Shown: in pieces, positions 11,230 through 28,728 of the stretch | Layout of the letters: the number at the start of each line of letters is the position of its first letter | Numbering within the stretch: position 1 is the first letter of the stretch | DNA from: Halobacteriales archaeon QS_1_69_70 | GTDB lineage: Archaea; Halobacteriota; Halobacteria; Halobacteriales; Haloarculaceae | Length of the DNA stretch: 64,000 nt | Assembly (NCBI GenBank): GCA_003021005.1 | Contig: PXRI01000017.1 | Span: 185,542-249,541, forward strand | Reading direction: 5' to 3' | The notes under the pieces: generated by a model | What the model saw: only the letters and a program-made list of their open reading frames with translations | What the model was told of the DNA's origin: nothing | Databases searched by the model: none | Made by a program: the position numbers and the translations under genes

Positions 11230-11236
11230 GCACTGT

Positions 11237-12036: not shown

Positions 12037-13059
12037 ATGTACTCGATATACCCAAGGGCACGTGAACGAATATATCATTACGTAGGATTCGTTCTTGCGC
12101 TCCATATCGGAGCCCACGCTACACATACCTTCACTCACCTAACAATACCTGTTACTTTACCGACACCGCTGACAGTTTTCACCATCTTCGTGGTCTTCAT
12201 TGCCCCAGTAGGAGGGTTCCTCCTTCTATTAAGAGGAGACAGTCTTTTCGGAGGAATTATCTTCGTCGCATCAATGGCAATCTCACTAGCGTTGGGTGGA
12301 ACCTTCCACTTCGTGTTGCAGAACCCAGATCACGTATCGTCGGTGCCGAATGGAGTCCTGGGATTCACCTTCGAGATGACCGCTGTAGCAGTCGCGTTAA
12401 TCGACTTAGTTGGTAGCATTCTCGGCGGACTGGTGATTTGGGCCCAGACATCGAACCTTCCGGTCTCATTACGACAATCAGGTCGAATCTCCGGTTTACC
12501 AAGTTCCGGGTTTCGACCACTCACCCGATTCACGTATTGGTTCTCGAAGCGAATATTCGGAGAGGTCCCCGAACCTGTGACCATCATGGCACACAATAAC
12601 CAGATATTGTGGGGAACAAGTGCGTTCGAGATGGCACTTGATCGAGCAGGGCACGTCGACGAGCGATTAAAGGAACTTACAGTCCTGAAGGCAGCTAAGG
12701 TAATCGGGTGTGACTTTTGTGTCGACATCGGAACATCCGAAGCTCAGGACTTGGGGATTCCCCATGAACAGCTGGCAGAACTCCACCGGTTCGAAGAGAG
12801 CGATGCGTTCAACGAACTGGAACGGCTAGTCCTTCGGTACGCGGTCGCGGTCTCTACGACACCTACTGACGTGCCCGACGGAATGTATGACGAATTGAGC
12901 ACCAATTTCGATGAAGCCGAGATGGTGGAACTCACTGCCGCTATCGCGTTCGAGAACTACCGTGCGCGGTTTAATCACGCATTCGAGATTAAATCTCAAG
13001 GGTTCTCCGAAGGCGGCCTTTGTCCACGTATGGAGGAGCCACCCACCGTCCAAGAGTAG
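12037..13059 (+). CDS. Membrane protein fused to an AhpD/carboxymuconolactone decarboxylase-like domain
   Basis: From ATG 12037 the product has 340 residues; a TTG at 12016 could add seven. The first 150 or so residues form about four membrane segments (VFTIFVVFIAPVGGFLLLL, FEMTAVAVALIDLVGSILGG). Residues about 170-335 match the CMD/AhpD fold, with MAHNNQILWGTSAFEMALDR, the core helix LKELTVLKAAKVIGCDFC and its Cys225-x-x-Cys228 pair, then IPHEQLAELHRF. Classical AhpD adds a His three residues after the second Cys; here the stretch is CVDIGTS, so the proton relay is altered. Alkylhydroperoxidases and decarboxylases share this fold. Anchoring such a domain to the membrane is unusual and would suit a lipid-soluble substrate. 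A hand count of 12061-12120 gives 29 G+C of 60. Confidence 0.85.
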   Translation: MYSIYPRARERIYHYVGFVLALHIGAHATHTFTHLTIPVTLPTPLTVFTIFVVFIAPVGGFLLLLRGDSLFGGIIFVASMAISLALGGTFHFVLQNPDHVSSVPNGVLGFTFEMTAVAVALIDLVGSILGGLVIWAQTSNLPVSLRQSGRISGLPSSGFRPLTRFTYWFSKRIFGEVPEPVTIMAHNNQILWGTSAFEMALDRAGHVDERLKELTVLKAAKVIGCDFCVDIGTSEAQDLGIPHEQLAELHRFEESDAFNELERLVLRYAVAVSTTPTDVPDGMYDELSTNFDEAEMVELTAAIAFENYRARFNHAFEIKSQGFSEGGLCPRMEEPPTVQE

Positions 13060-13122
13060 CTCTAACCAGGTTAACTGGTGGCCCTTCGTGAAATTGATTT
13101 ATGCATAATCCCTGGTTTTCCC

Positions 13123-14520
13123 TCACGAGGACGGTTGCACGTTCTGGTTCAAACTAAAGAGGTTGTCTGGGTCCCACTCTTCTTTCAGCTCGACGAGGCG
13201 TTCGTAGTTCTCGCCGTACGCGGCCGATATCCGTTCCTCTTCGTCCCGGTCCAGATAATTCGAGTAAACTGCTCCGGTCGCGTACGGAGACATTTCTTCG
13301 TGGAAGTTCCGTGTCCACGCGATCATCTCGTCGTCAGCGTTAGGATCGCCCCAGCCGCTGAAAACACCGAACGTATATGCCGCATTCCGGTGCGGATATG
13401 CGGTTTCTGTCTCGTCAACTTCATTGATAGCACCCCCCATGGGTTCAATAACGATTTGCGTGTACCGACCAGGGAGTGATTCTGTCCGCGAAGCGATCGT
13501 ATCAATCGCTCCCTCCGGCAGCGATTGCAGGTAATGGGACTTCCAGTAGTACCGTTCTCCCCTCGGTTGACCACCATCGAAGAACTGCTGGAGATCCGCG
13601 TATCTCATTGGGTGCACGGCAGCGAATATCGGGTCTCCGAAATCAGCAAATGGCTCGAATTCTGGCCGACCCTTATCTACTGGCCCGGCGTAGCAGGCAA
13701 ACAGTCCCACGACGATCTGACCGTGTAACACCTCGGGGAAGCGTGGTACTTCGGGTACGTGTGCGACAGTCGCGTAGCAAGCGACTTCGTTCGGAGCGTC
13801 GGCCATGAATTCCTTGTAGAAATAAAGCGCATCTTCCGCATCCTCAATGGGGTGGACGACTTGAGCGGTCAACACCTCGGGGCCGACTCCGTGGAGTTCG
13901 AAATTGAAGCATGTGACGATGCCCAAATTCCCACCACCACCCCGAAGTCCCCAGAATAGCCCTGGATTTTCAGCTTCGCTTGCGTGAACGAACTCACCGT
14001 CGGCCGTAACGACGTCTACACCAATCAGGTTGTCCGTGGAAAGCCCAAACTTTCTTGCGAGGTATCCGATACCTCCTCCAAGGGTCAAACCTGCGACACC
14101 GGTAGTCGATATGAATCCGCCAGTCGTAGCCAGGCCGAACGCCTGTGCCTCGTGATCAAAGTCAGCCCACTTCGCACCGGGGCCAACGCGGGCGGTCTCG
14201 GAACTCGGATCGACTCGAACACTATTCATAAGGGATAGGTCGATCAGGATACCGCCATCGCACGTAGACTTGCCCGCGACGTTGTGCCCACCGCCCTTGA
14301 TGGCGAGGAGGCGGTCGTTCTCCCGCGCGTAGTCCACAGCGGCAATTACATCAGCGGTTCCTGTGCATCGGACGATCGCAGCCGGAAACTTGTCGATCAT
14401 CCCATTCCACACGCGCCTCGATTCGTCGTACCCTTCGTCTCCCGGCTCTAGGACACCCCCGTTAATGTGGTGTTCAAGTCTGCCGCTTACGGGTTCTTCC
14501 ACACGGTCATCTGCAGTCAT
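13123..14520 (-). CDS. FAD-dependent oxidoreductase of the berberine bridge enzyme type
   Basis: The product is 465 residues from ATG 14520; a GTG immediately upstream at 14523 is also possible. The PCMH-type FAD domain is clear: KGGGHNVAGKSTCDGGILIDL, then GFISTTGVAGLTLGGGIGYL and LRGGGGNLGIVTCFNFEL. The BBE motif closes the protein (AAYGENYERLVELKEEWDP, NLFSLNQN). The His of GGGH is the usual 8-alpha FAD attachment point. The second anchor of bicovalent members (Cys in RxCxG) is replaced by RVGPGA, so FAD is likely bound once. Such enzymes oxidise alcohols, sugars or C-H bonds next to amines. Substrate unknown; neighbours suggest a role in tailoring a small molecule. TTAATAAT lies about 50 bases upstream. 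Confidence 0.9.
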   Translation of the reverse strand: MTADDRVEEPVSGRLEHHINGGVLEPGDEGYDESRRVWNGMIDKFPAAIVRCTGTADVIAAVDYARENDRLLAIKGGGHNVAGKSTCDGGILIDLSLMNSVRVDPSSETARVGPGAKWADFDHEAQAFGLATTGGFISTTGVAGLTLGGGIGYLARKFGLSTDNLIGVDVVTADGEFVHASEAENPGLFWGLRGGGGNLGIVTCFNFELHGVGPEVLTAQVVHPIEDAEDALYFYKEFMADAPNEVACYATVAHVPEVPRFPEVLHGQIVVGLFACYAGPVDKGRPEFEPFADFGDPIFAAVHPMRYADLQQFFDGGQPRGERYYWKSHYLQSLPEGAIDTIASRTESLPGRYTQIVIEPMGGAINEVDETETAYPHRNAAYTFGVFSGWGDPNADDEMIAWTRNFHEEMSPYATGAVYSNYLDRDEEERISAAYGENYERLVELKEEWDPDNLFSLNQNVQPSS

Positions 14521-14523
14521 CAC

Positions 14524-14835
14524 CTTCTACCCCGAATACTGCGGGCAAAAAACTTCCCCGAGGAAGAATTAATAATAGCGACGAGTGCTCCAATTATAAC
14601 CGGTATTTTATTATGGTACGGTTTGCCCGGTTGTCACTAAGAATATTGTCCTTTCTGGATACGACTAAGGGATCGAAATTCGTCGTACAGCAGATGCTGC
14701 CAACGTAGTCGTGAGACAAACTGCAATCCCGTCGATACATTCCATCCCAAAACCTGTTTCTCGATAGGCGCAGGCGACCGCAGCTTATAACCCCTTAGTA
14801 AAACCGGGTTAGTTGCCTCATTTACAGTTGGAAAA
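14524..14835. other. AT-rich divergent intergenic region
   Basis: Region between divergent genes, noticeably A+T rich (AGAATTAATAATAGCG near 14563). It likely holds promoters for both sides. No reading frame longer than a few dozen codons looks real and no hairpin stands out. Confidence 0.5.
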
Positions 14836-14843
14836 GATATAAG
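14836..14843 (+). promoter_or_regulatory. TATA box for the Tat-like/UbiA gene pair
   Basis: GATATAAG lies 28-35 bases before the ATG at 14871, giving a transcript with almost no leader. Confidence 0.65.
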
Positions 14844-14870
14844 TTACAGGCCCGAGGGGATCGAGTTACC

Positions 14871-15440
14871 ATGCAGCGCAGAAAGATACTCGAGATGAGT
14901 GCAGGGGTACTCGGTGGTAAAGCTATCGGAGTCGATGATGTCGACCTCCCAGACGCTTCCCAGGGGGAAACCCCGGACATGTCAAGTGGCCGTGAGTTCT
15001 CCCTCACCGCCGAAGGATCGGGAGACCTGGACATGATCGTGCCTGGGGATAAGGAGACGAATAGAGCTGTCTTGGTGAACCTCTACGGGAAAGTCGAAGG
15101 CTGGTTCGAAGGTGGTCTTGAAGGGCGGTTGCTAGGAGGCCTCGGCGAGACACCTATCCCGTTCTCCACCGAGATGAAGCTTAGTCGACCGGAGAAAACA
15201 GCCATGGCCCATACAAGTGAATACTACTGCGTCCTGGAAGGTGTGATTACCGAATGCTGCGGCCAGAGTTTCCATGCTCACGGTAATTTCCAATCGGTTA
15301 TCTCAACTGGGGAATTCAACGGAACCCACATCAAAGGGGAAGTCCACACTGACACAGACATCGGTTGGCCGATGAAAGCAAGTATCAAGGGCGTGCAACT
15401 GCCCGGCGAATCCCCTGCAGCTACTCACGTAGAAACGTAG
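14871..15440 (+). CDS. Unknown protein with Tat-like N-terminus, paired with UbiA
   Basis: The 189-residue product starts MQRRKILEMSAGVLGGKAIG, resembling a short twin-arginine signal with a weak hydrophobic part, so export is uncertain. The rest is soluble and beta-rich, with a Gly-rich stretch (WFEGGLEGRLLGGLGETPIP) and the cysteines CVLEGVITECCGQSFHAHGN. The CC pair followed by two histidines could bind a metal. I recognise no family. It ends six bases before the prenyltransferase gene, so the two are very likely co-transcribed and may act on the same lipid-soluble compound; that link is inferred from position. Confidence 0.75.
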   Translation: MQRRKILEMSAGVLGGKAIGVDDVDLPDASQGETPDMSSGREFSLTAEGSGDLDMIVPGDKETNRAVLVNLYGKVEGWFEGGLEGRLLGGLGETPIPFSTEMKLSRPEKTAMAHTSEYYCVLEGVITECCGQSFHAHGNFQSVISTGEFNGTHIKGEVHTDTDIGWPMKASIKGVQLPGESPAATHVET

Positions 15441-15446
15441 GACCTT

Positions 15447-16382
15447 ATGCCCTCAAGAGTATTTTCTACTATAGGTAATAGTGGTAACATCATCCGAGGG
15501 CTGTGGCAGCTGTTTCGCATCAAACCGACGGTATCCTGGGGGTTCTCGTCGTTCGCTCTGGGTGTGGGGGTGGCCGTGGCCAGAGCGGGCACCGACGTGA
15601 ATCTGCTTGACGGGCTACTGATGTTCACCCTCGTGGGATTATCATTGGGCATCGCCAGTACCGGACTGAACGACGCCTACGACTGGATCACAGGGACCGA
15701 CAAGATGAGCATCGCCAAAGGGACCGGAGGTAGCCGCGTCATCCCTGAGGGGAAGATGTCGCTCAAGCAGGTCATCCTCACGGCGGTATTTTCCCTGGTC
15801 GCTATGTTAGCCATCGGGGCACACCTCGTCCTGCAGCAAGGGCGACCGATGCTCCTTGTCGTCGCTGTGGGCATACTCGCTCCCGTAGCGTATTCGGTCC
15901 CCCCGTTGAAGATGGGCTATCGGCCTTTTAACGAGCTCGTCGTCGGAGTTCCAGCTCTAATCTGTGTCGTAGTCGGGGCTGACGTGGCATTAACCGGGGA
16001 TTGGTCATGGCTCGCCGTCGGTCTCGGATTCGTCCACGCGATGTTCGGCATCTCTTGGTTCATCGTGTCACGGGTCCCGGATTACGAACCGGACAAGCAG
16101 GCCGGAAAGATTACGTCCGTCGTCTACTTGGGCCGTGACAACGCATCGCTGTTGTCTGGGATTTATGCGAGCATCGCCATCACGCCGGTACCATTCCTCG
16201 CGGTGGAGTTCACGCCGGCGATTGTCGTTTCGGTCGTCGCTTGGTTCGCCTTGGTCCTGGGGGTTTTCAAGCTGGAGCCCTACAATCCCGAACACGCATC
16301 GCGACTGCGGCTGCGGAATATGCACATCACCACGGCCCACGGCTTTGGTATGAGTATTCTACTCCCGTTGATGGGCGTGTGA
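15447..16382 (+). CDS. UbiA-family prenyltransferase
   Basis: The 311-residue integral membrane protein has about nine hydrophobic segments. The first Asp-rich motif is GLNDAYDWITGTDK (NDxxD...D) near residue 75 and the second is VPDYEPDKQAGKIT near 210. Both bind the magnesium-diphosphate of a prenyl donor. Family members attach prenyl chains to aromatic acceptors (menaquinone, ubiquinone, heme) or make lipids such as digeranylgeranylglyceryl phosphate. A separate UbiA homologue occurs at 32033-32929 in the backbone; this island copy sits among flavin oxidases and anthranilate genes, which favours an unusual aromatic acceptor. That acceptor is inferred. Confidence 0.9.
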   Translation: MPSRVFSTIGNSGNIIRGLWQLFRIKPTVSWGFSSFALGVGVAVARAGTDVNLLDGLLMFTLVGLSLGIASTGLNDAYDWITGTDKMSIAKGTGGSRVIPEGKMSLKQVILTAVFSLVAMLAIGAHLVLQQGRPMLLVVAVGILAPVAYSVPPLKMGYRPFNELVVGVPALICVVVGADVALTGDWSWLAVGLGFVHAMFGISWFIVSRVPDYEPDKQAGKITSVVYLGRDNASLLSGIYASIAITPVPFLAVEFTPAIVVSVVAWFALVLGVFKLEPYNPEHASRLRLRNMHITTAHGFGMSILLPLMGV

Positions 16383-16499
16383 CCCTACCTCCATCCGAAC
16401 CCATACCGCAACCGCCCGGTCACGTTCACTCCGGTCCGGTTCAATGAAATCCGGGCTCGAACGAGACTTGGTGGGGGGTGGTTTGCGTTGCTCCGAAGC

Positions 16500-18017
16500 T
16501 CAAAATGGAACCCACTTCCGGACCCGAGAGGTGCGGTCCGGATCCAACACGTCACCGATCACTTTCTCCGCGCATATCTTCCCGCTCAGCAAGCACGGGG
16601 CGACCCCGATTCCGGGGTTCGTGTTCGCGCCGACAAAGTACATCCCCGGAAGTTCCTTTGACCTATGCGGCGGACGAAACGGTCCACTTTGAGTGAGTGC
16701 CTGTGCGAGACCGTAGGCTGAACCGCGTGTACTATTGTACCGTTCGGCAAATTCGGAGATCGAGAAGTGTTCCTCTACGACAATCCTGTCCCGTACATCG
16801 CACCCGGCACGGGAATCCAGGGTCGAGAGCAAGGTGTCCCGGAACTCAGCTCGATTCGAGGAACTATCGACGACCTCGGTACTCACCGTACTCATCAGAT
16901 AAAGTGCGCTGTGCCCCTCGGGGGCGACCGAATCGTCGGTTATTGAAGGAGCGTTTACGTACACGATCGGATCGTCGGGCCAGATGGAATCCTGGCTCGG
17001 CCCGCACGAGCCTTTGGAATCGGGCGGTAACAGCCACGAATGGTGGCGCAAATCACCAAGATCGCCCTCCACGCCGAGATAGACGACGAACATCGATGGC
17101 GTGTACTCGCACTCCCGCCAGAAACTTCTGGAGAACCCTCGCTGGTCCTCCGAGAGAAGTTCCGACTCGGTGTATTCGTAGTCGGCGTTGCTGACGACGA
17201 TGTCCGTTGTGTGGTCACCGGCACTCGTTTGGACGGTGAACGAACCGGAATCGCTCCGTATAGCCCGGGCGGCCGTCCGGGTCTCGAACTTGACGCCGAG
17301 ATCTCTCGCCAATTCCACGACCCCCTCCACGACGCTAGCCATCCCGTCCTCGGGATAATAGATTCCTTCGTTGAAATCAAGGTGACTGAGGAAGGTATAG
17401 AAGCCCGGCAGCTTGGAGGGGGCACTTCCCACAAGAATAGTAGCATTGGTCAGAACCTGTTGCAGCTTCGGATGGGTAAAGTGGTCCTCGATGGTGTCTT
17501 TCAGGGTGCCTCGTAGCGGGGACAGGTGCCACAGTTGTCCGAGTAACCTCGGGTCGAGCCAATCTCTGATCCCCGCTCGGCTCGAGGAGATGACGTCCAT
17601 CATGATTTCGTAGTTCGTTGCTGCTTGGTCCAGGTAGCGATCGAGTTGTTCACCGGCACCGGGCTCGAGCCGCTCGAAGGTCTCCCTCTGGGAACTCCTG
17701 TCCGACGGGATATCGATTCGGTCACCGTCGTCAAAGAAGACCCGGTAGTTAGGATTGAGTCGTTCGATGCTGTAGAACTGGTCGGGAGACCTGTCAAAGT
17801 CGGCGAAGAAGTCTTCGAACACGTCAGGCGTCGTGTACGCCACGGGACCCATGTCGAATTTGAATCCCCGCTCCTTCAGTCTGTTTGCTCTTCCGCCGAG
17901 ATGGCAGTTCTTCTCAACGAGCGTAACGTCCGCACCTGCCTCCGCCAAATAGCAGGATGCCGATAGGCCGCCGAAACCACCCCCAATGACGACGACCGAC
18001 TTCTCAGAGACTGACAT
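16500..18017 (-). CDS. CrtI-type FAD oxidoreductase (phytoene desaturase family)
   Basis: From ATG 18017 the product has 505 residues. It opens with the dinucleotide-binding VVVIGGGFGGLSASCYLAEA and the acidic end VTLVEKN, then HLGGRANRLKERGFKFDMGP, a signature of the carotenoid desaturase/isomerase group. The C-terminal FAD contact is ELPGMYFVGANTNPGIGVA. CrtI relatives desaturate or isomerise polyene chains, but some oxidise other isoprenoids. It is convergent with the UbiA gene about 120 bases away, which suits an enzyme acting on the prenyl part of the same product. Alternatively it is an ordinary carotenoid enzyme that happens to lie here; no phytoene synthase gene is in the window. Confidence 0.88.
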   Translation of the reverse strand: MSVSEKSVVVIGGGFGGLSASCYLAEAGADVTLVEKNCHLGGRANRLKERGFKFDMGPVAYTTPDVFEDFFADFDRSPDQFYSIERLNPNYRVFFDDGDRIDIPSDRSSQRETFERLEPGAGEQLDRYLDQAATNYEIMMDVISSSRAGIRDWLDPRLLGQLWHLSPLRGTLKDTIEDHFTHPKLQQVLTNATILVGSAPSKLPGFYTFLSHLDFNEGIYYPEDGMASVVEGVVELARDLGVKFETRTAARAIRSDSGSFTVQTSAGDHTTDIVVSNADYEYTESELLSEDQRGFSRSFWRECEYTPSMFVVYLGVEGDLGDLRHHSWLLPPDSKGSCGPSQDSIWPDDPIVYVNAPSITDDSVAPEGHSALYLMSTVSTEVVDSSSNRAEFRDTLLSTLDSRAGCDVRDRIVVEEHFSISEFAERYNSTRGSAYGLAQALTQSGPFRPPHRSKELPGMYFVGANTNPGIGVAPCLLSGKICAEKVIGDVLDPDRTSRVRKWVPF

Positions 18018-18435
18018 GCCTACTCCCATTGGAAACCTCGTTGTAGTCAATCAATCGATTGCGGAAAATTATGGCGCGCTACCGTTACACGCGGCGGCGA
18101 CGGGCTGGCCCGGTACCTGAGTGGGAGAGGGAGGGCGGCCGATAATCGCCTATCACACCCACCTCCATCGGCCGAGGTACTACCGTCGTTGCAACGGACC
18201 ATAAGGTGACTTTTAGGACGGATCTATCTGCGCATTTCTCCAGTCCGTTCACAATGACCGTCCACTGGACGGGCGAGAGGACGGACCGCGTGCCACGGCG
18301 GTCAAACCGGGCCTTGTTGTCTCGGCCAGGAGTATAGAAATCGACGATATTCCGGCGTTAGCCGGCTATTTTTCCCACCGCCATTCTTAATACGTTCCAC
18401 TTTCGCTTTAGGAGATAAGACTGACCTGGTTCGAA
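18018..18435. other. Divergent intergenic region, no gene seen
   Basis: About 420 bases between the divergent CrtI-type and TrpD-like genes. On the plus side CTTAATACG (18386-18394) is a possible TATA box with a leader of roughly 15-20 bases; on the minus side ATAATTTTC near 18070 may serve the CrtI-type gene. No coding frame is convincing. Confidence 0.45.
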
Positions 18436-19415
18436 ATGATTGAGTATATCGATCGAGTTACGAGTGGCGAAGGCCTCTCTCGCACCACGGCCCGGGAAGC
18501 CGGCCGAGCGCTCTTCAACGACGCCACGGACACACAGCTCGGTGCTATGATAGCGGGGCTACGAGCGAAAGGAGAGACCGTGGATGAGGTCGTCGGGATC
18601 GCAGAAGGGCTGTCTGATTCGGCTCGCATGGTACGGCCTGACGTATTTCCGCTGGTCACGCTGGGAAACACGGGCTCCGGGGAACACGGTACTTTCGATG
18701 TCCTCACGAGCGCTGCATTGGTTGCCGTAGCGGCGGACGTCCAGATTACGAGACACCTCAGTGGGCCCGTTGGTTCTTACGCTGGTCGACGACCTAGACT
18801 CGGTGTACTGATCGATGAGGACCCCCGTGCAGTCAGCCGAGCCATCGAAGAAGTCGGCATCGGCCTCGCACCGATGTCCGCGTTTCATACCGGAATGGAA
18901 GCCTACGATCGACTCTGTGCGGAGGTCGGCCTGCGGACCATCTTCGACATCCTCGGTCCGCTGATCAACCCGACCCGGGCGGACGCACAGCTCGTGGGGG
19001 TCGCGGCTCCCGAGTTGGTCGAAGTCGTCGCTCATTCACTCAAGATGACGGGAGCCGATCGGGCGCTCGTCGTCCACGGTGATGGTCTGGACCAGGTCGC
19101 GGTCCACGGTCCGACGGTCGTCGCAGAGGTCAATGGAGGCGACGTCCATCAGTACTCGCTACGACCTTCGGACATCGGTCTCGAACACCACGATGCCCAC
19201 GACATCGCCACCACCGCTGATGGGTGGAACATGAACGCAGTCCGTTCGGTCGTCACCGGTCGCGAGGGCGAAGCCAAGCAGGAGGCAGTCCTCGCGAACG
19301 CGGGCGCAATCGTGTATCTCGCCGGGGCCGCCGACACCCTGTGTTCGGGTGTCGAACAAGCGCGTACGACAATCGAATCCGGAAGACTGACCGGATCCTT
19401 GAACTCTTCGCATGA
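18436..19415 (+). pseudogene. Anthranilate phosphoribosyltransferase-like gene, frameshifted at the end
   Basis: The fold is that of TrpD, which adds phosphoribosyl to anthranilate. Conserved blocks include IEEVGIGLAPMSAFH, LRTIFDILGPLINPTRADAQ, RALVVHGDGLDQ and a C-terminal AVLANAGAIVYLAGAAD. Key PRPP-site motifs have changed: GTGGDG reads GNTGSGEHGT, NIST reads DVLTS, and KHGNRSVSS reads RHLSGPVGS. Near 19380 the original frame appears to continue one base out, giving KTDRILELFA and a stop at 19415 that overlaps an ATGA. Read literally the frame instead runs to 19695, adding some 90 unrelated residues. It may be a degenerate gene or a protein with a new role; I call it broken with moderate confidence. 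Confidence 0.65.
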
Positions 19416-19843
19416 ACGACGAATCTCACAGCGACACCGTCGGGACCCGGCATCCGAGGAACCCGGGCACGTTTTCATCTCCCACGAACCGGGTGGCATG
19501 ATTGGCGACAACAGTTCCGCGCAAGGAAGAGATACCTCCGCTCAAGCGGTATCCGGCTCGGGTTTGCAAGGAAGGTTACGACCACCGTCCGTTCCCGTCG
19601 GCGACCGAGGGGAATGTACTCCCCAGATTGCGGACGGACCAGCGAGGACATCACGGACAGCCCAGGACGAGAAACCGTCGTGGCGGCCATCCTGACGATG
19701 GTATCTAGAAGTTGGGGACAGATTCAAGCCCGACGTGCTGGGTGGATGGCTACCGCCAAATTACGTCTCCAGGTCACTCAATTGGGACATAGTTGTGGAC
19801 TTGCAACAGACTGCACCCGTCGGTATCCGGTGAGGCGAAACGA
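19416..19843 (+). other. Remnant region between trpD-like and trpE
   Basis: In haloarchaeal trp operons a trpF gene often sits here. The ATG at 19411 overlapping the restored trpD stop suggests a gene once followed, but its frame ends after about 30 codons and the remaining frames are arginine-rich without TrpF or TrpC motifs. I see no intact gene. Confidence 0.4.
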
Positions 19844-21505
19844 ATGCCAGCAAGCCACCTGTCTGTAGACCGGCGAACTTTCGCGGAATGGGCGGACGAG
19901 GCCCCTGTCGTGGTATACGTGACGGCCGAACTCCCGTACGGGGATCCACTCGGTGGGTATGCGGCCGTGACAGGACGGCGCGAGGGCCGGGGGCAGACCG
20001 ACGACGACAGAGACGCCGACGGCCGGAGCTTGGCTTACTCTTTCCTCTTTGAGCGGGCAGACAAGGTGGCGTCCTCTGATCCGACCGGCGCGCTGACGAC
20101 TGGAACGACGGCCGAGTCGCCCGTACGCTACTCTGCCGTGGGGTACGAGCCCCCCATCGTCATCTCCGCCCGTCCTGGGGACGACCGGGTCTCGGTACTC
20201 GATGACAGGTATCGGGGACTAATCGACATCGGTGGCGGGGATGTAGTCGACAGACTCAGGTCGGCGTTCCCGGATGTGGCTTCGAGAGGGTTCCCCCGCC
20301 GGAGTGGTCGGCACTTCGCGGGAGGTCTCGTCGGCTTCCTGTCGTACGACGCCGTGTACGACCTCTTCCTTCACCAAGTCGGCGTCAACCGTCCTCGCTC
20401 CAAGTTTCCGGATGCGGAGTTCGTCTTGAGCACTAAGAACTTAGTGTACGACCACGTCGCTGAGCGGACGAAGCTGGTGTTCACCCCCGTCGTCAGCCAG
20501 GATGACGACCCGCAGGCGGTGTACGACGCTCTTCTCGCTGAGGCGCGACGGATCCGAGAAATCATCGACCGTCCGAATCGAATCGACGGCTCGGGATTCC
20601 GGCAGGTTGGTCAGAACGCCGACCGGGGCGAGGATTTTCGAGCCACTGTCAGACGAACGAAAGAGTACGTCAGGGAAGGCGACATCTATCAAGGCGTCAT
20701 CTCCAGAAGACGGCAGTTGTACGGCGATATCGACACGCTCCAGCTGTATGCAACGCTACGTGAGCTCAACCCCTCACCGTATATGTACCTCTGTGGGTTC
20801 GACGACACGACGCTCGTCGGTGCGAGTCCGGAGACGCTCGTCGAGGTCAGAGACCGGAAGATAGTTACAAACCCGATTGCCGGCACCTGCAAACGGGGTG
20901 ATGGCCCGGTCGACGATCGGCGTCAAGCAGGACGGATGCTGGTAGATGGGAAGGAGCGAGCTGAGCACGCGATGCTGGTCGACCTCGCGCGCAACGACGT
21001 CCGGCGGGTGAGCGAGGCCGGCTCCGTAGGCGTGGAGGAGTTCATGAATGTCATCAAGTACTCGAACGTCCAGCACATTGAGTCGACAGTGGTAGGGCGG
21101 CTGGCCGCAGGGGCGGACGCCTTCGACGCGACGCGAGCGACGTTCCCAGCCGGGACGCTCTCCGGCGCACCGAAGTTACGCGCCATGGAAATCATCGACG
21201 AGCTCGAGAAGACGCCACGGGGGCCTTACGGCGGTGGCATCGGTTACTACTCTTGGACGGGCGAGGCCGACCTCGCAATTATCATCCGGACCGCCACCGT
21301 CACCCATGACGTGGCCGTACCCAATGTGGTTACGGACGGCAGTGTTTCTGACGAAGTCGACCGTGTGACGATTCGGGCAGGCGCGGGAATCGTGGCCGAC
21401 TCGGACCTGTCAGCCGAGTTCGAGGAGACCCAGCAGAAGATGGACAGTGTCTGCACCGCCCTCGAACGGATCCGGAAGGACCGGGCCGGAGAGATCGTAG
21501 AGTGA
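19844..21505 (+). CDS. trpE: Anthranilate synthase component I
   Basis: From ATG 19844 the product has 553 residues. The chorismate-binding domain is complete: DIYQGVISRRR, NPSPYMYLCGF, NPIAGTCKRGDG, ERAEHAMLVDLARNDVRRV, FPAGTLSGAPKLRAMEIIDE, and YGGGIGYYSW. With TrpG it makes anthranilate from chorismate and glutamine. The N-terminal element that normally reads LLES and senses tryptophan is FLFER here, so feedback control may be weak. It overlaps trpG by four bases (GTGA). In context the anthranilate probably feeds the neighbouring CoA ligase rather than only tryptophan synthesis; that is inference. ADIC synthase (PhzE-like) is an alternative activity. Confidence 0.9.
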   Translation: MPASHLSVDRRTFAEWADEAPVVVYVTAELPYGDPLGGYAAVTGRREGRGQTDDDRDADGRSLAYSFLFERADKVASSDPTGALTTGTTAESPVRYSAVGYEPPIVISARPGDDRVSVLDDRYRGLIDIGGGDVVDRLRSAFPDVASRGFPRRSGRHFAGGLVGFLSYDAVYDLFLHQVGVNRPRSKFPDAEFVLSTKNLVYDHVAERTKLVFTPVVSQDDDPQAVYDALLAEARRIREIIDRPNRIDGSGFRQVGQNADRGEDFRATVRRTKEYVREGDIYQGVISRRRQLYGDIDTLQLYATLRELNPSPYMYLCGFDDTTLVGASPETLVEVRDRKIVTNPIAGTCKRGDGPVDDRRQAGRMLVDGKERAEHAMLVDLARNDVRRVSEAGSVGVEEFMNVIKYSNVQHIESTVVGRLAAGADAFDATRATFPAGTLSGAPKLRAMEIIDELEKTPRGPYGGGIGYYSWTGEADLAIIIRTATVTHDVAVPNVVTDGSVSDEVDRVTIRAGAGIVADSDLSAEFEETQQKMDSVCTALERIRKDRAGEIVE

Positions 21506-22101
21506 CCCCCGAACGACTGACGCGGGTGTTGTTCGTCGACAACTTCGATTCATTCACCTACAATCTGGTCGAGTACGTGAGCCGGCACCCCGGCACCGAG
21601 ACGTCCGTTATGAGGAACACGGTGAATCTAGAGTCGATTCGATTGTTCGACCCAGATGGAATCATCATCAGTCCGGGACCTGGACGGCCCGAGCACGAAC
21701 GAGATGTCGGAGTCACGACCGACATCCTTCGCACCGTCAGCCACGAGGTGCCGACGTTGGGCGTGTGCTTGGGCCTCGAGGCGGCCGTCCACGTGTACGG
21801 CGGCAAGATCGGCTATGCGCCAGAGCCCGTCCACGGCAAGGCGTTCACCATCCAGCACGACGATCGCGGTGTCTTCCGAGGACTCGACCAGGGCTTCCGC
21901 GCCGGGCGGTACCACTCGTTGATCGCCACCGATGTCCCGTCCTGCTTTACGGTCAGCGCGACCACCGAGGACTGTGGCGAGGTACTGGTGATGGGGGTTC
22001 GCCACGAAAGCCACCCGATCAAATGTGTCCAGTTCCACCCTGAGTCCGTCCTTACTGGAGTCGGTGAGGAGGTGATCGAGAACTTCCTCGCCGACCTCTG
22101 A
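21502..22101 (+). CDS. trpG: Anthranilate synthase glutamine amidotransferase subunit
   Basis: The 199-residue product starts at GTG 21502, inside the trpE stop. Class I amidotransferase marks are LFVDNFDSFTYNLVEYV, IIISPGPGRPE, the nucleophile Cys in LGVCLGLEAAV, and the catalytic His-Glu in VQFHPESVLTG. The usual CLGHQ following the nucleophile is CLGLE, losing the glutamine-contacting Gln; the triad itself is intact, so ammonia transfer should still work, perhaps with altered glutamine affinity. It supplies ammonia to the TrpE partner. Confidence 0.92.
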   Translation: MTPERLTRVLFVDNFDSFTYNLVEYVSRHPGTETSVMRNTVNLESIRLFDPDGIIISPGPGRPEHERDVGVTTDILRTVSHEVPTLGVCLGLEAAVHVYGGKIGYAPEPVHGKAFTIQHDDRGVFRGLDQGFRAGRYHSLIATDVPSCFTVSATTEDCGEVLVMGVRHESHPIKCVQFHPESVLTGVGEEVIENFLADL

Positions 22102-22294
22102 CTACCGACGCCGTTCCCCTCTCGCAGCAACGGCGAGCGACTGCAACTGCGGGCTGAGCTGGAGCGCTCGCTCAAGACAAAGGCGAACTGCGTCACGGCG
22201 GGAGATTATTGAGGGCACTAGTCGCGGACGCAGCACACTGTCCCGTCACGACGAGGCGTCTCCGATACGAATGGAGCCGTCCGGATGGGGTAAG

Positions 22295-23953
22295 TCAGGT
22301 GTCCTTCATCACCTGGCTCTCTTGGCGGCGCTCGCACTCTCTAAGTTCAGTCCGGCGGATCTTGCCGGTCTCAGTACGGGGGAGTTCGTTGACGAACTCG
22401 ACCGCGCGCGGGTACTTGAACGGAGCCAGGTTGTCTTTGACGTGGCCCTGGAGTTCCTCAATCAGCTCATCAGACCCTGTCCGGTCCCGTGAGAGGACGA
22501 CGAAGGCTTTGACGATCTGGTTCCGCTCCTCGTCGGGGCTCGCTACCACCGCGGCGTCAGAGACCTCCGGGTGCTTCTCGAGGGCCCCCTCAACTTCCGG
22601 ACCAGGGACGTTGTACCCAGCGGTTATGATGAGGTCATCCCGCCGGGACTTGTACTCGAACCGGCCGTCCTCCCGGTGGACGAAAATGTCACCCGGGTAG
22701 TTCCACCCGTTATGGACGGCCTCCGATTGCTCGTCTGGACGGTTCCAGTACCTGATTCCGGTGGGACCGCGGACGGCAAGTACCCCCGGTTCGCCTCGGG
22801 GGACCTCCTCGTGGGTGTCAGGGTCCACCACCTTACATTCGTAGCCTGGTACCTGCAGCCCCGTGGCGCTCGGGTCGAAATCGTCCGCGAGACGATGACT
22901 GATGAACACGTGGAGCATCTCGGTCGTCCCGAGACCATCGGTCGTTTCGACCCCTATTTCCTCTTTGAGTCGTTCATAGGTGTGTTCGGGAAGCGGCTCG
23001 CCCGCGCTGACGAGAAGCCGGAGCGAGGAGATGTCGTACTCGGCTGCGATGTCGTCGCTCTGTTTGAACATCTGATTGTAGGCCGTCGGAACTGTTCCCA
23101 TCACGGTGACCCCGTACTCCTCGATGGCTTCGAGTAGGTCGAGGGAATCGGCGTCTTCCAGCAAGGCGGTACTCGCGCCGAACCTGAGGGGGAAGGCAAC
23201 GAGGACGCCGTATCCGTAGGTGAACGCGATGGGCGGGTTACCGCTGAACACGTCCTCTGGCGTGGGTTCGAGGCAGTAACGCGCGTACCCGTCGCAGATA
23301 GCGAGCAACTCACGGTGGGTGTGGACGGTCCCCTTCGGACGACCGGTCGTACCGGAGGTATACGCCATCAGGGCCAGGTCATCGCGCGTGGTCTCATACA
23401 AGTCGAGGTCTGGACTCGCCTTTTCGAGGAGCATTCCGTACCTCTCGAAATCACCCGCCCGCTCCGTCTCACCTGCCACCACTACGTTCTCGAGGGTCCC
23501 GGCAGAACGGTTCGCCTCGACGACCTCTTGCAGGAGATCGCCGGCCACGACGGCCGTGTGAGCTTCCGCGTCCGACAGCATGAACTCGATCTCCTCCGCC
23601 CGGAGCAACTTCATCGACGGCAAGGGGATTGCCCCAATCTTCTGGATGGCGAGACAGGTGACGACGTACTCCGGCCGGTTCGGGAACCGAACGAAGACTC
23701 TGTCGCCGGGGGCGACATCCAGCGTCCGGAGGGCGTTCCCCAGTCGGTCGCTCCGCTCTTTCAGCTGGGCGAACGTGAGGGTACGGTCTCTTGAGTACAC
23801 CGCGACGTCGTCACCTCGCCCCCCCTCCACGTGGCGGTCAACCATCTCGACCGCCGCGTTTATTTCCCTCGGGTACTTCAGTTCGGGTAGCGCAAAGAAT
23901 CGATCGGGGGAATCTTTATCCGGTAGGAACTGCTGGAGTTCGGCCCTCTGCAT
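22295..23953 (-). CDS. Benzoate/2-aminobenzoate-type CoA ligase
   Basis: From ATG 23953 the product has 552 residues and is an AMP-forming acyl-CoA synthetase. The phosphate loop is LMAYTSGTTGRPKGTVHTH; the adenylate motif is ETTDGLGTTEMLHVFIS; the hinge is YKSRRDDLIITAGYNVPGPE; the catalytic Lys lies in ELPRTETGKIRR. The TEMLHVFIS stretch is typical of benzoate, 4-hydroxybenzoate and 2-aminobenzoate CoA ligases. Given anthranilate synthase 200 bases away and an anthraniloyl-CoA-type monooxygenase further on, anthranilate is the likely substrate, by inference. It begins four bases after a small secreted protein gene, so they form an operon. Confidence 0.9.
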   Translation of the reverse strand: MQRAELQQFLPDKDSPDRFFALPELKYPREINAAVEMVDRHVEGGRGDDVAVYSRDRTLTFAQLKERSDRLGNALRTLDVAPGDRVFVRFPNRPEYVVTCLAIQKIGAIPLPSMKLLRAEEIEFMLSDAEAHTAVVAGDLLQEVVEANRSAGTLENVVVAGETERAGDFERYGMLLEKASPDLDLYETTRDDLALMAYTSGTTGRPKGTVHTHRELLAICDGYARYCLEPTPEDVFSGNPPIAFTYGYGVLVAFPLRFGASTALLEDADSLDLLEAIEEYGVTVMGTVPTAYNQMFKQSDDIAAEYDISSLRLLVSAGEPLPEHTYERLKEEIGVETTDGLGTTEMLHVFISHRLADDFDPSATGLQVPGYECKVVDPDTHEEVPRGEPGVLAVRGPTGIRYWNRPDEQSEAVHNGWNYPGDIFVHREDGRFEYKSRRDDLIITAGYNVPGPEVEGALEKHPEVSDAAVVASPDEERNQIVKAFVVLSRDRTGSDELIEELQGHVKDNLAPFKYPRAVEFVNELPRTETGKIRRTELRECERRQESQVMKDT

Positions 23954-23957
23954 GGTA

Positions 23958-24464
23958 TCAGCCTTCGTACTCGCAGGGGTGACCGTTCTTGTCGTGCTTC
24001 GAGTCCTTGTTGACCGCAAACTCGGAGAGGCCCGGGTGCACGGACTGGTTGCCGCTCAACAGACCGTCGTATCCCTCGCTGAAGCAGAATTGAACCGAGG
24101 CGTGGCCCGAATCCGTGTGGGCCTCGAAGTAGTGATCTCCCCGCTGCCGATTATCTTCGCTGTCGCAAGGACTGGCGTGTCCGTCTGCGATGCCGTTGGC
24201 GAGCAGGACGAATCCGGTGGCAGCCTCGGCGTCGTTGAGGTAAGCGTCCGCGCCGTCGGTCCCGACCTTGACGCCGCCTTCACCCCCGAACTGACTAGTC
24301 TCTTGGTCGCCGTTCTCGTCGGTACAGCTCCCGGATGCTCCGACCTCCGGGTCAGCGAACGCCGTACCGGTCGCACTCATTAGCAATGCTGCCTTTAAAG
24401 CAACCGCCAGCAGTATCCTTCGTTCCCGCATCCAGTCTATTTCGGAAGGGTGGGGTAAATCCAT
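23958..24464 (-). CDS. Small secreted protein upstream of the CoA ligase
   Basis: The 168-residue product starts at ATG 24464, placed 21-28 bases after TATA-like CTAAAAAA (minus strand); a second ATG at 24431 would give 157 residues. The signal peptide core is ILLAVALKAALLMSATG with a likely cut after TAFA. The mature part is acidic with four cysteines (SCTDENGD, SPCDSED, VQFCFSEGYDG, HPCEYEG) that could form two disulfides. I recognise no family. Its four-base spacing to the ligase gene implies co-transcription. Confidence 0.75.
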   Translation of the reverse strand: MDLPHPSEIDWMRERRILLAVALKAALLMSATGTAFADPEVGASGSCTDENGDQETSQFGGEGGVKVGTDGADAYLNDAEAATGFVLLANGIADGHASPCDSEDNRQRGDHYFEAHTDSGHASVQFCFSEGYDGLLSGNQSVHPGLSEFAVNKDSKHDKNGHPCEYEG

Positions 24465-24484
24465 TCTGCCGTGTAATTCCCAGG

Positions 24485-24492
24485 TTTTTTAG
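24485..24492 (-). promoter_or_regulatory. TATA-like box for secreted protein-CoA ligase operon
   Basis: The minus strand reads CTAAAAAA, about 25 bases before the ATG at 24464, supporting that start and a leaderless transcript. Confidence 0.5.
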
Positions 24493-24675
24493 CCCGCGGA
24501 ACCGACGTACCTCTTGGCGTCCTTCGACCCGTTCACGCGCTACCCAGGCTCCACGGGTCCCTGTGGTCCGACTGGTAATTAATCGCGAGTGGGCGACTTG
24601 GCCGAGCGGTTTCAGAGTCGTTCGGATGCTCGTCACCGTTTATCAGCGCGTTACATGATTGTCACCGAACCCAAT

Positions 24676-24683
24676 CTTTATCA
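24676..24683 (+). promoter_or_regulatory. TATA-like box before the small membrane protein gene
   Basis: CTTTATCA lies about 40 bases before ATG 24719, which would leave a short leader of roughly a dozen bases. Confidence 0.45.
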
Positions 24684-24718
24684 TGTCCTTTCGTTACCTT
24701 CGTCACGAGTAACACCTC

Positions 24719-25079
24719 ATGAAGGAAAGAATTCGGTCTCTCGCGGACGACAAGCTCGTCAACAGTTACCTAATCCCCTGGGGGTCGTCTTACTGGTTCG
24801 CCGTCGTCATCCAACCGGACCTCGTGGGGAACTTTAGCCCCCTTAGTTTCCGCGGTGAGCCTGGCGGTACTCGGCGCTCTCATCCTCGGCAATCTGTTCG
24901 TCGACAGTAGCGTTCTCTGGGTGCTACTCGGCCTCTTCTCAACGTCGGGTATCATCTCGAGCTGGGTGGGTTACACCCAGTGGACAGTGCCCTACTCCAC
25001 TGGATTGGCGGCGGTGAGCATGGCCCTGGTGAACGCCCTCTCCGCCGTCGTGTTCTTCTTCAAAGCGCTTGACGAGTGA
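24719..25079 (+). pseudogene. Small membrane protein, apparently frameshifted
   Basis: The first part (ATG 24719) reads MKERIRSLADDKLVNSYLIP followed by a hydrophobic stretch YWFAVVIQPDLVGNF. Near 24850 the hydrophobic pattern jumps to another frame, SLAVLGALILGNLFVDSS, and runs to FFFKALDE at 25079. Joined, they give about 118 residues with three or four membrane segments. Alternatively the second part is a gene of its own from GTG 24855 (74 residues). No family recognised. Low-G+C island location. Confidence 0.6.
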
Positions 25080-25335
25080 GTTACTGTCAACCAGACCGAA
25101 AGCTAGCCAAGGGGTGACGGACACGATCCGCCGAGACTGTAGCATCCGACGCGGGTACCCCGGGGATGTCTGGCTCACGACGGGGGGAGCCGGCCGGTTG
25201 CGACGACGTTTCGAAGGGTCGTAACGTATGCAAATGCGTGGTGTGCTGACGGATATAGCCGGTTCTTTTTCAACAAAAATCAACGTCTTTATTCTATGAT
25301 TCTCTTCTTAAAGTGCGAAGATTATCGCGCAGTAA

Positions 25336-25343
25336 CTTTATAA
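25336..25343 (+). promoter_or_regulatory. TATA box for the MMP12-like gene
   Basis: CTTTATAA lies 26-33 bases before ATG 25369, the clearest TATA box in the island, in a locally A+T-rich stretch. Confidence 0.7.
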
Positions 25344-25368
25344 TCCCTTATTTCGATAGCGATTGCAA

Positions 25369-26580
25369 ATGTACGTCGGACTCGAGCACTCGACCACCGG
25401 TGTGAAGGTTGGCATCGTCAGCGACGACGATCACGTGACCGCGTTCCGCATTCTCTCGGATGCCATTGACGAGCAATCACCGTTCGAGGATGAGCTCGAG
25501 GCCCGGTTCAACGTTGACGACATCGAGTTGGCGGCGTTCGCCTATAGCTGGGGGAACGGGTTCTCCCAAATCAAACCCCTGAGCGAGGTCGAAAATCGGG
25601 GTTTGCGGGAACTAGAAGACCTCCCGGACCGTATCGGGTTCGCCTCCGACGAGAACGACGCTTACAAAGCAGCTAACGTGTTCGACGAACTCACGAAGAT
25701 GTCGGTTCCGAGCGTGGCGCTTCCCGGCATCAACGAGCCACATCCGGATCACATGCACCCATACTTCACGATCTACTCGCCGCTCCTAAGCCTGGACAAG
25801 ATCGCCGATGCCCGGTACGCCCAGCACGTATTCCGACAGAACGAGACCGACGGCAAACACTTCATCACCGTCAACATGAGTTCCTCGACCGTCTCGAGTC
25901 TGGTGCCCGGTGGGAAGGTCCGCGGCGGGTTCTCGTGGCTCGCCCTAATCCACGGGTGGTTCGAAGTCCCGAGGACCTTGGACTTAATGCGCGGCGAAAT
26001 CGAACCGGGTGGAGCAGCCCTCTCGGCGGGACTGCTTGCAAAAAGCGGGAAGTCACTCGACGCGCTCGAAGGAGCCCCGGACGAGGACCTCCTTCGTTTG
26101 GTGTACTGGGCAGTACTGCATGACGTCTACTCGATGGTTCCGTTCTCCGATATCAAAGCTGACACCCCGCTCGAAGGTATCGTGATCACCGGCCGGCTGA
26201 GCCCGTTCCGCGAGCCGTTCGACGTTCCCAAGCAATTCAGCGATGGGCTCTCTGACGTGGGGCCGGTCACAATCGCCGAACCGTTCAGTTGTGCGTACGG
26301 CGCAGCTCACATTGCCAAGGAAATCTGCAATGGCGCTTCACACGTCCTGGGGCTGCCAGTTAGTGACAAGGTCGAACCCGGGCGGCCAGGGAATGTCGAG
26401 CGTGCCTGGGCAATCCGACTCCATTCACCCCGGTGGAGGCGCCGGCCGGCGAGCAACCGCGGTCACCGGTCGGCATCGCCAGGTCCGTACCGACGAGCGT
26501 TCGGAACGGTGGAAGTCAGGGCCTGGTCCGGAAGGGGACTATCACGACAGCCCCGGACGGGTGGCTCTCTCCGTCGGTGA
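25369..26580 (+). CDS. ASKHA-fold protein related to methanogenesis marker 12
   Basis: From ATG 25369 the product has 403 residues. Its course follows methanogenesis marker protein 12: an ASKHA phosphate-1 loop GLEHSTTGVKVGIV (residues 4-17), FAYSWGNGF and VENRGLREL (58-82), VPSVALPGIN (113-122), then FITVNMSSSTVSSLVPGGKV and a Gly-rich stretch with EIEPGGAALSAGLL. A final YGAAHIAKEICNGASHVLG matches the family C-terminus. The last 65-70 residues are Arg/Pro-rich, unlike the family, and may be read-through after a lost stop. Family function is unproven; ASKHA relatives are kinases and hydratase-activating ATPases. Finding it in an aerobic haloarchaeon is unexpected. It ends six bases before the monooxygenase gene, so the two likely share an mRNA. 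Confidence 0.72.
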   Translation: MYVGLEHSTTGVKVGIVSDDDHVTAFRILSDAIDEQSPFEDELEARFNVDDIELAAFAYSWGNGFSQIKPLSEVENRGLRELEDLPDRIGFASDENDAYKAANVFDELTKMSVPSVALPGINEPHPDHMHPYFTIYSPLLSLDKIADARYAQHVFRQNETDGKHFITVNMSSSTVSSLVPGGKVRGGFSWLALIHGWFEVPRTLDLMRGEIEPGGAALSAGLLAKSGKSLDALEGAPDEDLLRLVYWAVLHDVYSMVPFSDIKADTPLEGIVITGRLSPFREPFDVPKQFSDGLSDVGPVTIAEPFSCAYGAAHIAKEICNGASHVLGLPVSDKVEPGRPGNVERAWAIRLHSPRWRRRPASNRGHRSASPGPYRRAFGTVEVRAWSGRGLSRQPRTGGSLRR

Positions 26581-26586
26581 CCCCGC

Positions 26587-28728
26587 ATGAACCTGACGGT
26601 GATCGGAGGCGGCCCTGGCGGACTGTACGCGAGCGAACTCATCAAGAAGGAGTTTCCGGACTGGGAAGTAAGCGTCTACGAACGGAATCGCCGGGGCAAC
26701 ACATACGGCTGGGGCGTCGTGTTCTCAGACGCGACGTTGGGCACGCTGAAGGAAGCGGACGCCCCCTCACACAAGGCGATCACGGACGCCTTCGCGTCCT
26801 GGAACGACATTGATACGTACGTCGAGGGGCAGTGGTACCGATGTAGTGGCCACGGGTTCGCCAGTATACTGCGGGCGGACCTGCTGAGGGTCCTCCAAGA
26901 CCGATGTCGAGACGTGGGCGTCGAACTCCACCACGAACACCGGGTGGACGAGCCGGAGGCGTACCGGGAAGCTGCGGACGTGCTCGTCGGAGCGGACGGG
27001 TTGCGCAGTACGGTCCGCGACCGCTACCATGGGCGATTTCAACCCACTATCCAGTCCGGCGAGACGAAGTTCATCTGGCTCGGGACTGAGAAAGTTTTCG
27101 ACGCGTTCACCTTCATCTTCCGAGAGAATGCGCACGGTCTGTGGCGGGTTCACGCCTACCCCGGAACGAAGAGCACATTCATCGTCGAGTGTACCGAGAG
27201 CACCTGGGAGAACGCCGACATGGACAAACGCGACGAGGCTGACGCACTCGCGTACTTCGAGGACCTCTTCACCGACCACCTCGACGGCCACGGACTCGAG
27301 TCGAAGCTCTACACGTGGCGGCGCTTTCCGGAGGTGTCCTGCGACTCCTGGTCAACCGAGGACATCGTCTTGCTTGGGGACGCCGCCCACACCGTCCACT
27401 TTACCGTCGGCTCGGGGACGAAGCTGGCCATGGAAGACGCGATCGCGCTGACTGGTGCGTTCCGTGAACACGGCGACGATCTAGGGGCCGTCTTCGACGC
27501 CTTCGAAACCGCCCGCCGTCCACAGGTAGCCACGTTGCAGGATATGGGGAGGCGAAGTCAACGGTTCTTCGAAAACGTGGAACGGTACATTGAGCAGGAG
27601 CCGAGACAGTTCATCTTCAACCTGTTGACCCGGAGCGGTCGCGTGTCGTACGACGAGCTCAGGGTCCGGGACCCGACGTTCGTCGACAGCTACGACCGCT
27701 GGTTCGACCGGTTCGAGGGGGCATCGGACGGTACGCCGACCGTGGCCACCCCGCCGCTATTCAAGCCGTTGCGACTTGGTGACATCACCCTTCCTAACCG
27801 CGTCGTCAGCACCTGTAGGCCGAGAGAGACGTCTTCGGACGGCGTACCCGGTCGTGCGACCCTCGAAACGTACGTGGATGACGCAACGAGCGGTGTCGGA
27901 ATGGTGCTCACGCAACCTGTCGCCGTGACGGAGAACGGTCGAATCTCGAGAGACAACCCGGGGCTCTACGCGGACGCACAGCGAGACGCGTGGCTCCCCG
28001 CGGTCGAACGCATTCACGCCGAGACGGAGACGGCCGCTGGCCTTCACCTCGCTCACGCGGGGCGGCGGAAAGAGGGGCGATTCCATACCGACCGACCACC
28101 GTCATCGTCCGCCGACCTGTTGGAACGACTCGCTCCGTCTGCGATACCGTACTCAGCCGAACACCCGGTTCCGACGGCGATGGACGCGAGTGATCTCCAA
28201 GCAATCCGCCGAGCCTTTGTTGCCGCCACCGAACGCGCGGACGCCGCTGGGTTCGATTACCTCCAGCTACACGCTGGAGACGGCTACTTGCTCGGGCAGT
28301 TCCTCTCGCCGCTCGCGAACGTTCGGACCGACGAGTACGGGGGTCGCACGGACGCACGGTTGCGCTATCCTCTCGAGGTCGTCGACGCGGTAAGGGACGT
28401 CTGGCCCGACCACAAACCGCTGGGCGTCACCATGCAGGCCAAGGACTGCCACGCGGACGGCATTGGACTCACCGAGGCCGAATCGTTCGCCCTCGCGTTG
28501 GACGAGTGCGGCTGTGACCTCCTGGCACCCGTGATCGGCGGAACGCTTCCGCCGGAACGACAGCAGGCGGTCGAGGTCCAGCTCGTCGACGCTTGTGACA
28601 GGATTCGGAACGAGACGGGTGTGCCCACGCTCTCGACCGCGCAGCCCACCAGTTTCGACGCCATCAACACCCAGGTCGGAGCGGGACGGACGGACCTCTG
28701 CACCTTCTCACCGCCGGGTCTGGAGTAG
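26587..28728 (+). CDS. Anthraniloyl-CoA/salicylyl-CoA monooxygenase-type two-domain flavoprotein
   Basis: The 713-residue product joins two flavin domains. Residues 1-370 are an FAD monooxygenase: VIGGGPGGLYASELIKKEFP, then ADVLVGADGLRSTVRDRY and VLLGDAAHTVHFTVGSGTKLA. Residues about 395-710 are an old-yellow-enzyme-type FMN domain: FKPLRLGDITLPNRVVS, HLAHAGRRKEGRF, GQFLSPLANVRTDEYGGR. The same order is known in 2-aminobenzoyl-CoA monooxygenase/reductase and salicylyl-CoA 5-hydroxylase. In the reductase part the usual HxxHGYLL reads LHAGDGYLL, so its activity may differ. The protein stops at DLCTFSPPGLE, roughly 40 residues earlier than I would expect, exactly where the island meets a truncated pilus gene. 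Substrate anthraniloyl-CoA is inferred from neighbours. Confidence 0.85.
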   Translation: MNLTVIGGGPGGLYASELIKKEFPDWEVSVYERNRRGNTYGWGVVFSDATLGTLKEADAPSHKAITDAFASWNDIDTYVEGQWYRCSGHGFASILRADLLRVLQDRCRDVGVELHHEHRVDEPEAYREAADVLVGADGLRSTVRDRYHGRFQPTIQSGETKFIWLGTEKVFDAFTFIFRENAHGLWRVHAYPGTKSTFIVECTESTWENADMDKRDEADALAYFEDLFTDHLDGHGLESKLYTWRRFPEVSCDSWSTEDIVLLGDAAHTVHFTVGSGTKLAMEDAIALTGAFREHGDDLGAVFDAFETARRPQVATLQDMGRRSQRFFENVERYIEQEPRQFIFNLLTRSGRVSYDELRVRDPTFVDSYDRWFDRFEGASDGTPTVATPPLFKPLRLGDITLPNRVVSTCRPRETSSDGVPGRATLETYVDDATSGVGMVLTQPVAVTENGRISRDNPGLYADAQRDAWLPAVERIHAETETAAGLHLAHAGRRKEGRFHTDRPPSSSADLLERLAPSAIPYSAEHPVPTAMDASDLQAIRRAFVAATERADAAGFDYLQLHAGDGYLLGQFLSPLANVRTDEYGGRTDARLRYPLEVVDAVRDVWPDHKPLGVTMQAKDCHADGIGLTEAESFALALDECGCDLLAPVIGGTLPPERQQAVEVQLVDACDRIRNETGVPTLSTAQPTSFDAINTQVGAGRTDLCTFSPPGLE

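Follow-up and report, generated by a model that had tools for sequence, protein, structure and literature searches.

What does a relative of methanogenesis marker protein 12 (MM12) do in a haloarchaeon, and does its position directly in front of an aromatic-CoA monooxygenase gene tell anything about its function? This question is raised by an open reading frame (ORF) at positions 25369-26580 (plus strand) of the window, by which we mean the whole analyzed stretch of 64,000 nucleotides. An earlier note on this DNA had derived the marker 12 likeness from a series of short motifs, and the ORF as well as every motif quoted there could be located in the sequence. The likeness was borne out by the NCBIfam profile TIGR03281 (methan_mark_12), which matches the ORF end to end (residues 2-332 on model positions 1-325/326, E 1.6e-36), and no other NCBIfam family matched. 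With 126.2 bits, the window copy falls under the curated cut-off of 180.85 bits. Among the other haloarchaeal members, the Halosimplex protein reaches 148.8 bits and that of Haloarcula pellucida 188.8 bits, and as the latter passes the cut-off, the haloarchaeal branch legitimately belongs to the MM12 family despite the score of the window copy. Membership in DUF1464, which had been considered as well, was not upheld, since a Pfam scan of the window protein gave no match at E <= 1. The locus has the following features:

11001-28700, no strand: low-GC island that includes the MM12-like gene (GC 0.50-0.66, versus about 0.70 in both flanks)
18436-22101, plus strand: trpD-like gene, trpE and trpG (anthranilate synthase), assigned by Pfam, TIGR01820 above cut-off, and composition
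22295-24019, minus strand: AMP-forming ligase of the benzoate-CoA ligase family (TIGR02262, E 1.5e-107, 360.5 bits versus a cut-off of 375)
25337-25344, plus strand: putative TATA-like element TTTATAAT, about 25 nt 5' of the ATG, read from the sequence
25369-26364, plus strand: MM12-like ASKHA protein, conserved body of about 332 amino acids, assigned by TIGR03281, haloarchaeal clade, codon periodicity and AlphaFold2 fold
26365-26580, plus strand: read-through tail of the MM12-like ORF, non-homologous to other members and without codon periodicity
26587-28728, plus strand: FAD monooxygenase/old-yellow-enzyme (OYE) fusion of the salicylyl-CoA 5-hydroxylase or 2-aminobenzoyl-CoA monooxygenase type (NF006101, PF01494, PF00724)

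A rare haloarchaeal branch of the MM12 family

In an even but partial sample of 392 genomes of the class, an MM12-like gene was found in eight, the genome of the window counted, and none of 19 genus mates of the window's host gave a match. In the phylum, TIGR03281 scores above its cut-off in 169 of 295 genomes, which is consistent with methanogens. A scan of genome contigs with the window copy as single query protein gave no match because this copy is too divergent; a search with the family alignment found nine loci, which belong to H. pellucida, Har. amylolytica, Halocatena marina, Natrinema mahii, Natrialba aegyptia, the metagenome-assembled genome QS_1_68_20 (with the two copies QS1_a and QS1_b), H-GB1-1 and Halosimplex aquaticum. 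One more carrier, Halorussus caseinilyticus, came to light when plasmids were searched.

A maximum-likelihood tree splits 12 haloarchaeal sequences (window included) from 24 methanogen sequences by a 97/99 branch, so that the separate haloarchaeal branch for which the earlier note had suggested a phylogeny does exist, and this clade is a rare sister of the methanogen MM12 proteins. Both groups align over their full length and have the Gx[DE]H[SG]T loop and the RG, PG and SS[SN] motifs in common, but they form separate clades, and the haloarchaeal proteins contain HST and SSS where those of methanogens contain HGT and SSN. The gene surroundings differ as well, with several methanogen copies being positioned directly before pyruvate:ferredoxin oxidoreductase genes (loci L073, L077, L078, L080). 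The McrA domain was absent in all 11 haloarchaeal carriers searched, including the genome of the window, and present in two methanogen controls. We found nothing relevant on haloarchaeal MM12, on TIGR03281 or on terpenoid-type clusters of the kind described below in the open-access literature.

Fold and predicted activity

The window protein (pLDDT 79.6, pTM 0.85) and the H. pellucida protein (pLDDT 79.4, pTM 0.86) were modeled with AlphaFold2, and both models agree with the ASKHA-type fold that had been assumed from the sequence. In fold searches against the PDB, butyrate, acetate and propionate kinases occupied ranks 1-30 with the window model (best E 3.3e-11, TM-scores relative to the query 0.47-0.58) and ranks 1-24 with the H. 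pellucida model (best E 7.2e-11), and pantothenate and ROK-family kinases followed at lower ranks in both cases. While acetokinases thus give the best fold matches of both MM12-like models, sequence identity amounts to only 10-15%, and none of the MM12-like members tested has a Pfam match. With such identities and with TM-scores of 0.5-0.6, the fold class is fixed, but the reaction is not. A profile of the haloarchaeal proteins produced only chance matches with the sequences of solved structures, no kinase being better than E 0.35 and no acetokinase being returned. At the position where a glycine-rich phosphate-2 loop would be expected in acetokinases, the MM12 family has SSS or SSN.

In ASKHA activators of the BadF/HgdC type, cysteines bridge a [4Fe-4S] cluster. 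No column of the haloarchaeal clade contains an invariant cysteine, which disfavors an iron-sulphur-bridged reductase activator, and no reductase activators were found among the top 50 fold matches listed for the window and H. pellucida models. The BadF/HgdC type, with which the MM12-like protein has only the ASKHA superfamily in common, was rejected for the lack of the invariant cysteine and of any Pfam match at E <= 1. The proteins of the haloarchaeal branch are most likely phosphotransferases with an acetate/butyrate-kinase-like fold, and not reductase activators.

An NDT-like partner gene and terpenoid-type clusters

The neighborhoods of the loci were inspected to about 10 kb on each side. 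In all six loci examined for this feature, the stop codon of the MM12-like gene overlaps the start of a nucleoside-deoxyribosyltransferase-like (NDT-like) gene by 4 or 8 bp, and the record annotation of the Halorussus plasmid gives a seventh overlap, of 8 bp, so that the arrangement is present in 7 of the 12 distinct haloarchaeal MM12 loci outside the window. As the other five (QS1_a, H-GB1-1 and three Halosimplex-group genomes) have no such partner nearby, the pairing is not universal. Three loci of the H-GB1-1 and Halosimplex set, in which no NDT partner is in view, have a common regulator adjoining the MM12-like gene (L049, L059, L060), and the one regulator that was scanned has a FilR1 middle domain.

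The NDT-like subfamily (E below 1e-80) occurs in five of the 392 genomes, each time adjacent to the MM12-like gene; if both were distributed independently, the chance of all five falling within the eight MM12 genomes would be about 7e-10, with relatedness ignored. The partner matches the nucleoside 2-deoxyribosyltransferase superfamily (PF05014) at E 2e-5 to 2e-4, under the Pfam cut-off, and its PDB profile matches include 2-deoxyribosyltransferase and the N-hydrolase DNPH1. It is longer than the proteins of this superfamily, has an invariant SCGTxxE motif, and represents a distinct subfamily that in our sample is found solely beside MM12-like genes. In methanogens, the search for this subfamily returned generic superfamily matches only.

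Most haloarchaeal MM12 copies are found in what look like mobile terpenoid-type clusters, seemingly for making and exporting a terpenoid. A run of ten genes, coding for an amidohydrolase, the MM12-like and NDT-like proteins, three ABC-transporter components, a squalene-cyclase-like protein, an MMPL transporter, a polyprenyl synthetase and a UbiA protein, is common to the Halorussus caseinilyticus plasmid NZ_CP119811 and Halocatena marina, with 71-84% identity. The QS1_b locus combines UbiA, MM12-like and NDT-like genes with two cyclases and ABC genes, the H. pellucida locus contains a glycosyltransferase and a cyclase carrying DWDDTA, the Natrialba aegyptia locus a P450, two methyltransferases and a glycosyltransferase, and the QS1_a locus a P450. 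The squalene-cyclase-like gene, taken to encode a class II cyclase, is itself rare: of 332 genomes, four gave a strong match, and two of these four are MM12 carriers. On the Halorussus plasmid, a gene of the GMP-reductase/IMPDH family (L132:8940-10067) precedes the amidohydrolase-MM12-NDT run. It was not seen at other loci within the distance inspected, and may be taken as a hint to purine nucleotide chemistry.

In Har. amylolytica and N. mahii, clusters of 7.4 and 9.6 kb separate nuoCD from nuoH, whereas in eight other loci these genes follow each other directly or almost directly. These clusters hold P450s, a methyltransferase, an MTH865-like gene, UbiA, MM12 and NDT, in one case together with an amidohydrolase. 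The same nuoCD/nuoH site of the complex I operon is thus occupied in two genera (L053:4668-12035 and L055:9538-19134), and transcription of complex I may drive the inserted cluster or be interrupted by it. The presence of UbiA and a methyltransferase within a nuo operon led us to consider a modification of the respiratory quinone by the cluster, but for the clusters of the plasmid and of Halocatena, where no nuo genes are in view, this idea is unnecessary.

The window copy and its island

The copy of the window is the least typical of the MM12 proteins compared. It keeps 15 of 19 columns that are invariant across 35 other MM12 proteins, with the substitutions D6E, R30S, G101A and R204L, some of which hinge on the local alignment. 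Every other MM12 sequence departs at none or one of the 19 columns. The terminal branch of the window copy has a length of 1.34 in the maximum-likelihood tree, versus 0.06-0.52 for the others. Neither the NDT-like partner nor the squalene-cyclase-like gene was found in its own genome, a draft of 2.45 Mb that is 82% complete.

Towards the 3' end, MM12 conservation stops at about 26361-26380, and the last approximately 200 bases of the ORF have a GC content at the three codon positions of 0.69/0.72/0.65, versus 0.63/0.41/0.75 in the body. Tandem stops (TAG TGA) at 26361-26366 lie in a different frame from that of the ORF. This suggests a frame slip, either genuine or due to an assembly error. 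Of the earlier claim that the ORF ends six bases before the monooxygenase gene, the distance is correct, with the ATG of the monooxygenase 6 bases past the stop codon, but this gap is a by-product of the read-through tail; measured from the end of the conserved body, the spacing is about 220 bases. Upstream, leaderless archaeal transcripts are expected to have a TATA-like element about 25 nt before the ATG, and the spacing of TTTATAAT is as expected of a putative leaderless transcript of the MM12-like gene.

The monooxygenase matches NF006101 (PRK08255) with E 4.8e-225, at a score below the cut-off of that model. Further genes of the island encode a CMD-domain protein, a BBE-type FAD enzyme, a UbiA prenyltransferase and a CrtI-type desaturase. 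The berberine-bridge-type FAD enzyme (13123-14523) is related to BagK/FevA1 and BagG/FevA2 of bagremycin and ferroverdin, below cut-off. The UbiA protein is only remotely similar to that of the clusters (25%, E 3e-5), and the island is therefore not counted as a terpenoid-type cluster of the kind found in other carriers. In the trpD-like ORF (18436-19695), TrpD homology extends to about residue 317, and over the roughly 100 codons that follow there is little periodicity; this tail resembles the MM12 read-through and points to decay of the island or to errors in its sequence. No trpF is evident ahead of trpE. At the left edge of the island, an ORF at 11466-11981 (minus strand), which had no match in a Pfam scan, resembles a short ORF close to the Natrialba aegyptia MM12 locus and reads like a transposase remnant.

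The missing partner and cluster, the low-GC island, the read-through tail and the changed invariant residues make the window copy best read as a stray, divergent, functionally altered or decaying MM12 relative, which most likely had the cluster setting of its branch and lost it. The body may nevertheless be functional, as its frame is intact and its codon periodicity is kept, and since the draft genome is only 82% complete, the tail may stem from an error in sequencing or assembly, and the missing part may contain the partner.

Proposed function and alternatives

We lean towards the view that the haloarchaeal branch consists of ATP-dependent small-molecule phosphotransferases that serve terpenoid clusters together with the NDT-like partner, the window copy being a stray. 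In the commonest setting, the MM12-like protein is translationally coupled to the NDT-like protein, which may be an N-glycosidase or N-ribosyltransferase that releases an N-linked base or sugar or exchanges it for another. The MM12-like enzyme would then phosphorylate the product of the NDT-like enzyme, and the pair could in this way provide the cyclized terpenoid with a polar building block, probably derived from a nucleotide, or activate such a block. That both proteins form a new two-enzyme module, in which a group derived from a nucleotide is made or activated for a cyclic terpenoid that the cell exports, is a more tentative proposal, which we regard as possible but doubtful.

What alternatives exist for such phosphotransferases? 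The tailoring genes in the surroundings and the existence of carbamoyltransferase-type members within ASKHA would agree with an ATP-using transferase that decorates a terpenoid or nucleoside, for example by carbamoyl or acyl transfer, and is no kinase. As the fold searches returned acetokinases and sugar and pantothenate kinases but no carbamoyltransferase among the top 50 matches listed, we consider this unlikely. Somewhat less probable still is that the haloarchaeal MM12 proteins are vertically kept remnants of an ancestral methanogenesis with the same small-molecule or cofactor role as in methanogens. Many methanogens belong to the phylum of the haloarchaea, both groups have the N-terminal loop signature, and methanogenesis-related genes of other kinds are known to survive as remnants in non-methanogens (PMC9635834), but the patchy occurrence (8 of 392 genomes, none of the 19 genus mates), the plasmid location in one species, the position within the nuo operon in two, and the long branch that separates the clades all argue against vertical retention.

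Two further alternatives concern the window copy and its neighbors. It could be an ATP-dependent activator or electron-transfer partner of the neighboring aryl-CoA monooxygenase, as the earlier note had proposed, and the adjacent gene on the same strand, the ASKHA fold and the nearby CoA-ligase speak for it. However, this proposal is already largely refuted. The nearest fold is that of acetokinases, the haloarchaeal clade lacks the invariant cysteine, and the adjacency of the ORFs is produced by the read-through tail. Flavin enzymes of the O2-dependent class to which the neighbor belongs are not known to need an ATP-driven activator. Moreover, the suggested linkage to aromatic-CoA genes does not recur across genomes, since a homologue spanning both halves of the monooxygenase was found in none of 30 other genomes. 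These included 11 further carriers of MM12, of which two have one contig in common and may be the same strain. What the carriers have next to MM12 is instead terpenoid-type genes and the NDT-like partner. We therefore regard an activator role as highly improbable, and the closeness of both genes is best read as incidental. The copy could also be a functional, specialized member of an anthranilate-derived pathway encoded by the island (anthranilate synthase, aryl-CoA ligase, monooxygenase, UbiA), with which the gene content of the island and the intact 332-codon body with its codon periodicity would be compatible. As this combination occurs in no second genome among those searched, invariant residues are altered in the window copy, and other carriers have a different gene context, this is improbable as well, though less so than the activator role.

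Implications for the MM12 family

The window copy alone is of modest interest; it is the branch to which it belongs that may matter. MM12 is widespread in methanogens, and in the open-access literature we found no published function for it. If the proposed two-enzyme module is real, it would, by homology, give the first functional handle on MM12, which would then be a kinase of small molecules and not a factor specific to methanogenesis. The clusters seem to represent a terpenoid system of haloarchaea that has so far gone undescribed. The sister branch, whose hosts are culturable haloarchaea that make no methane, separates MM12 from methane formation, and the compact mobile clusters with their recognizable terpenoid enzymes and dedicated partner would provide tractable organisms and a substrate class with which MM12 can be tested.
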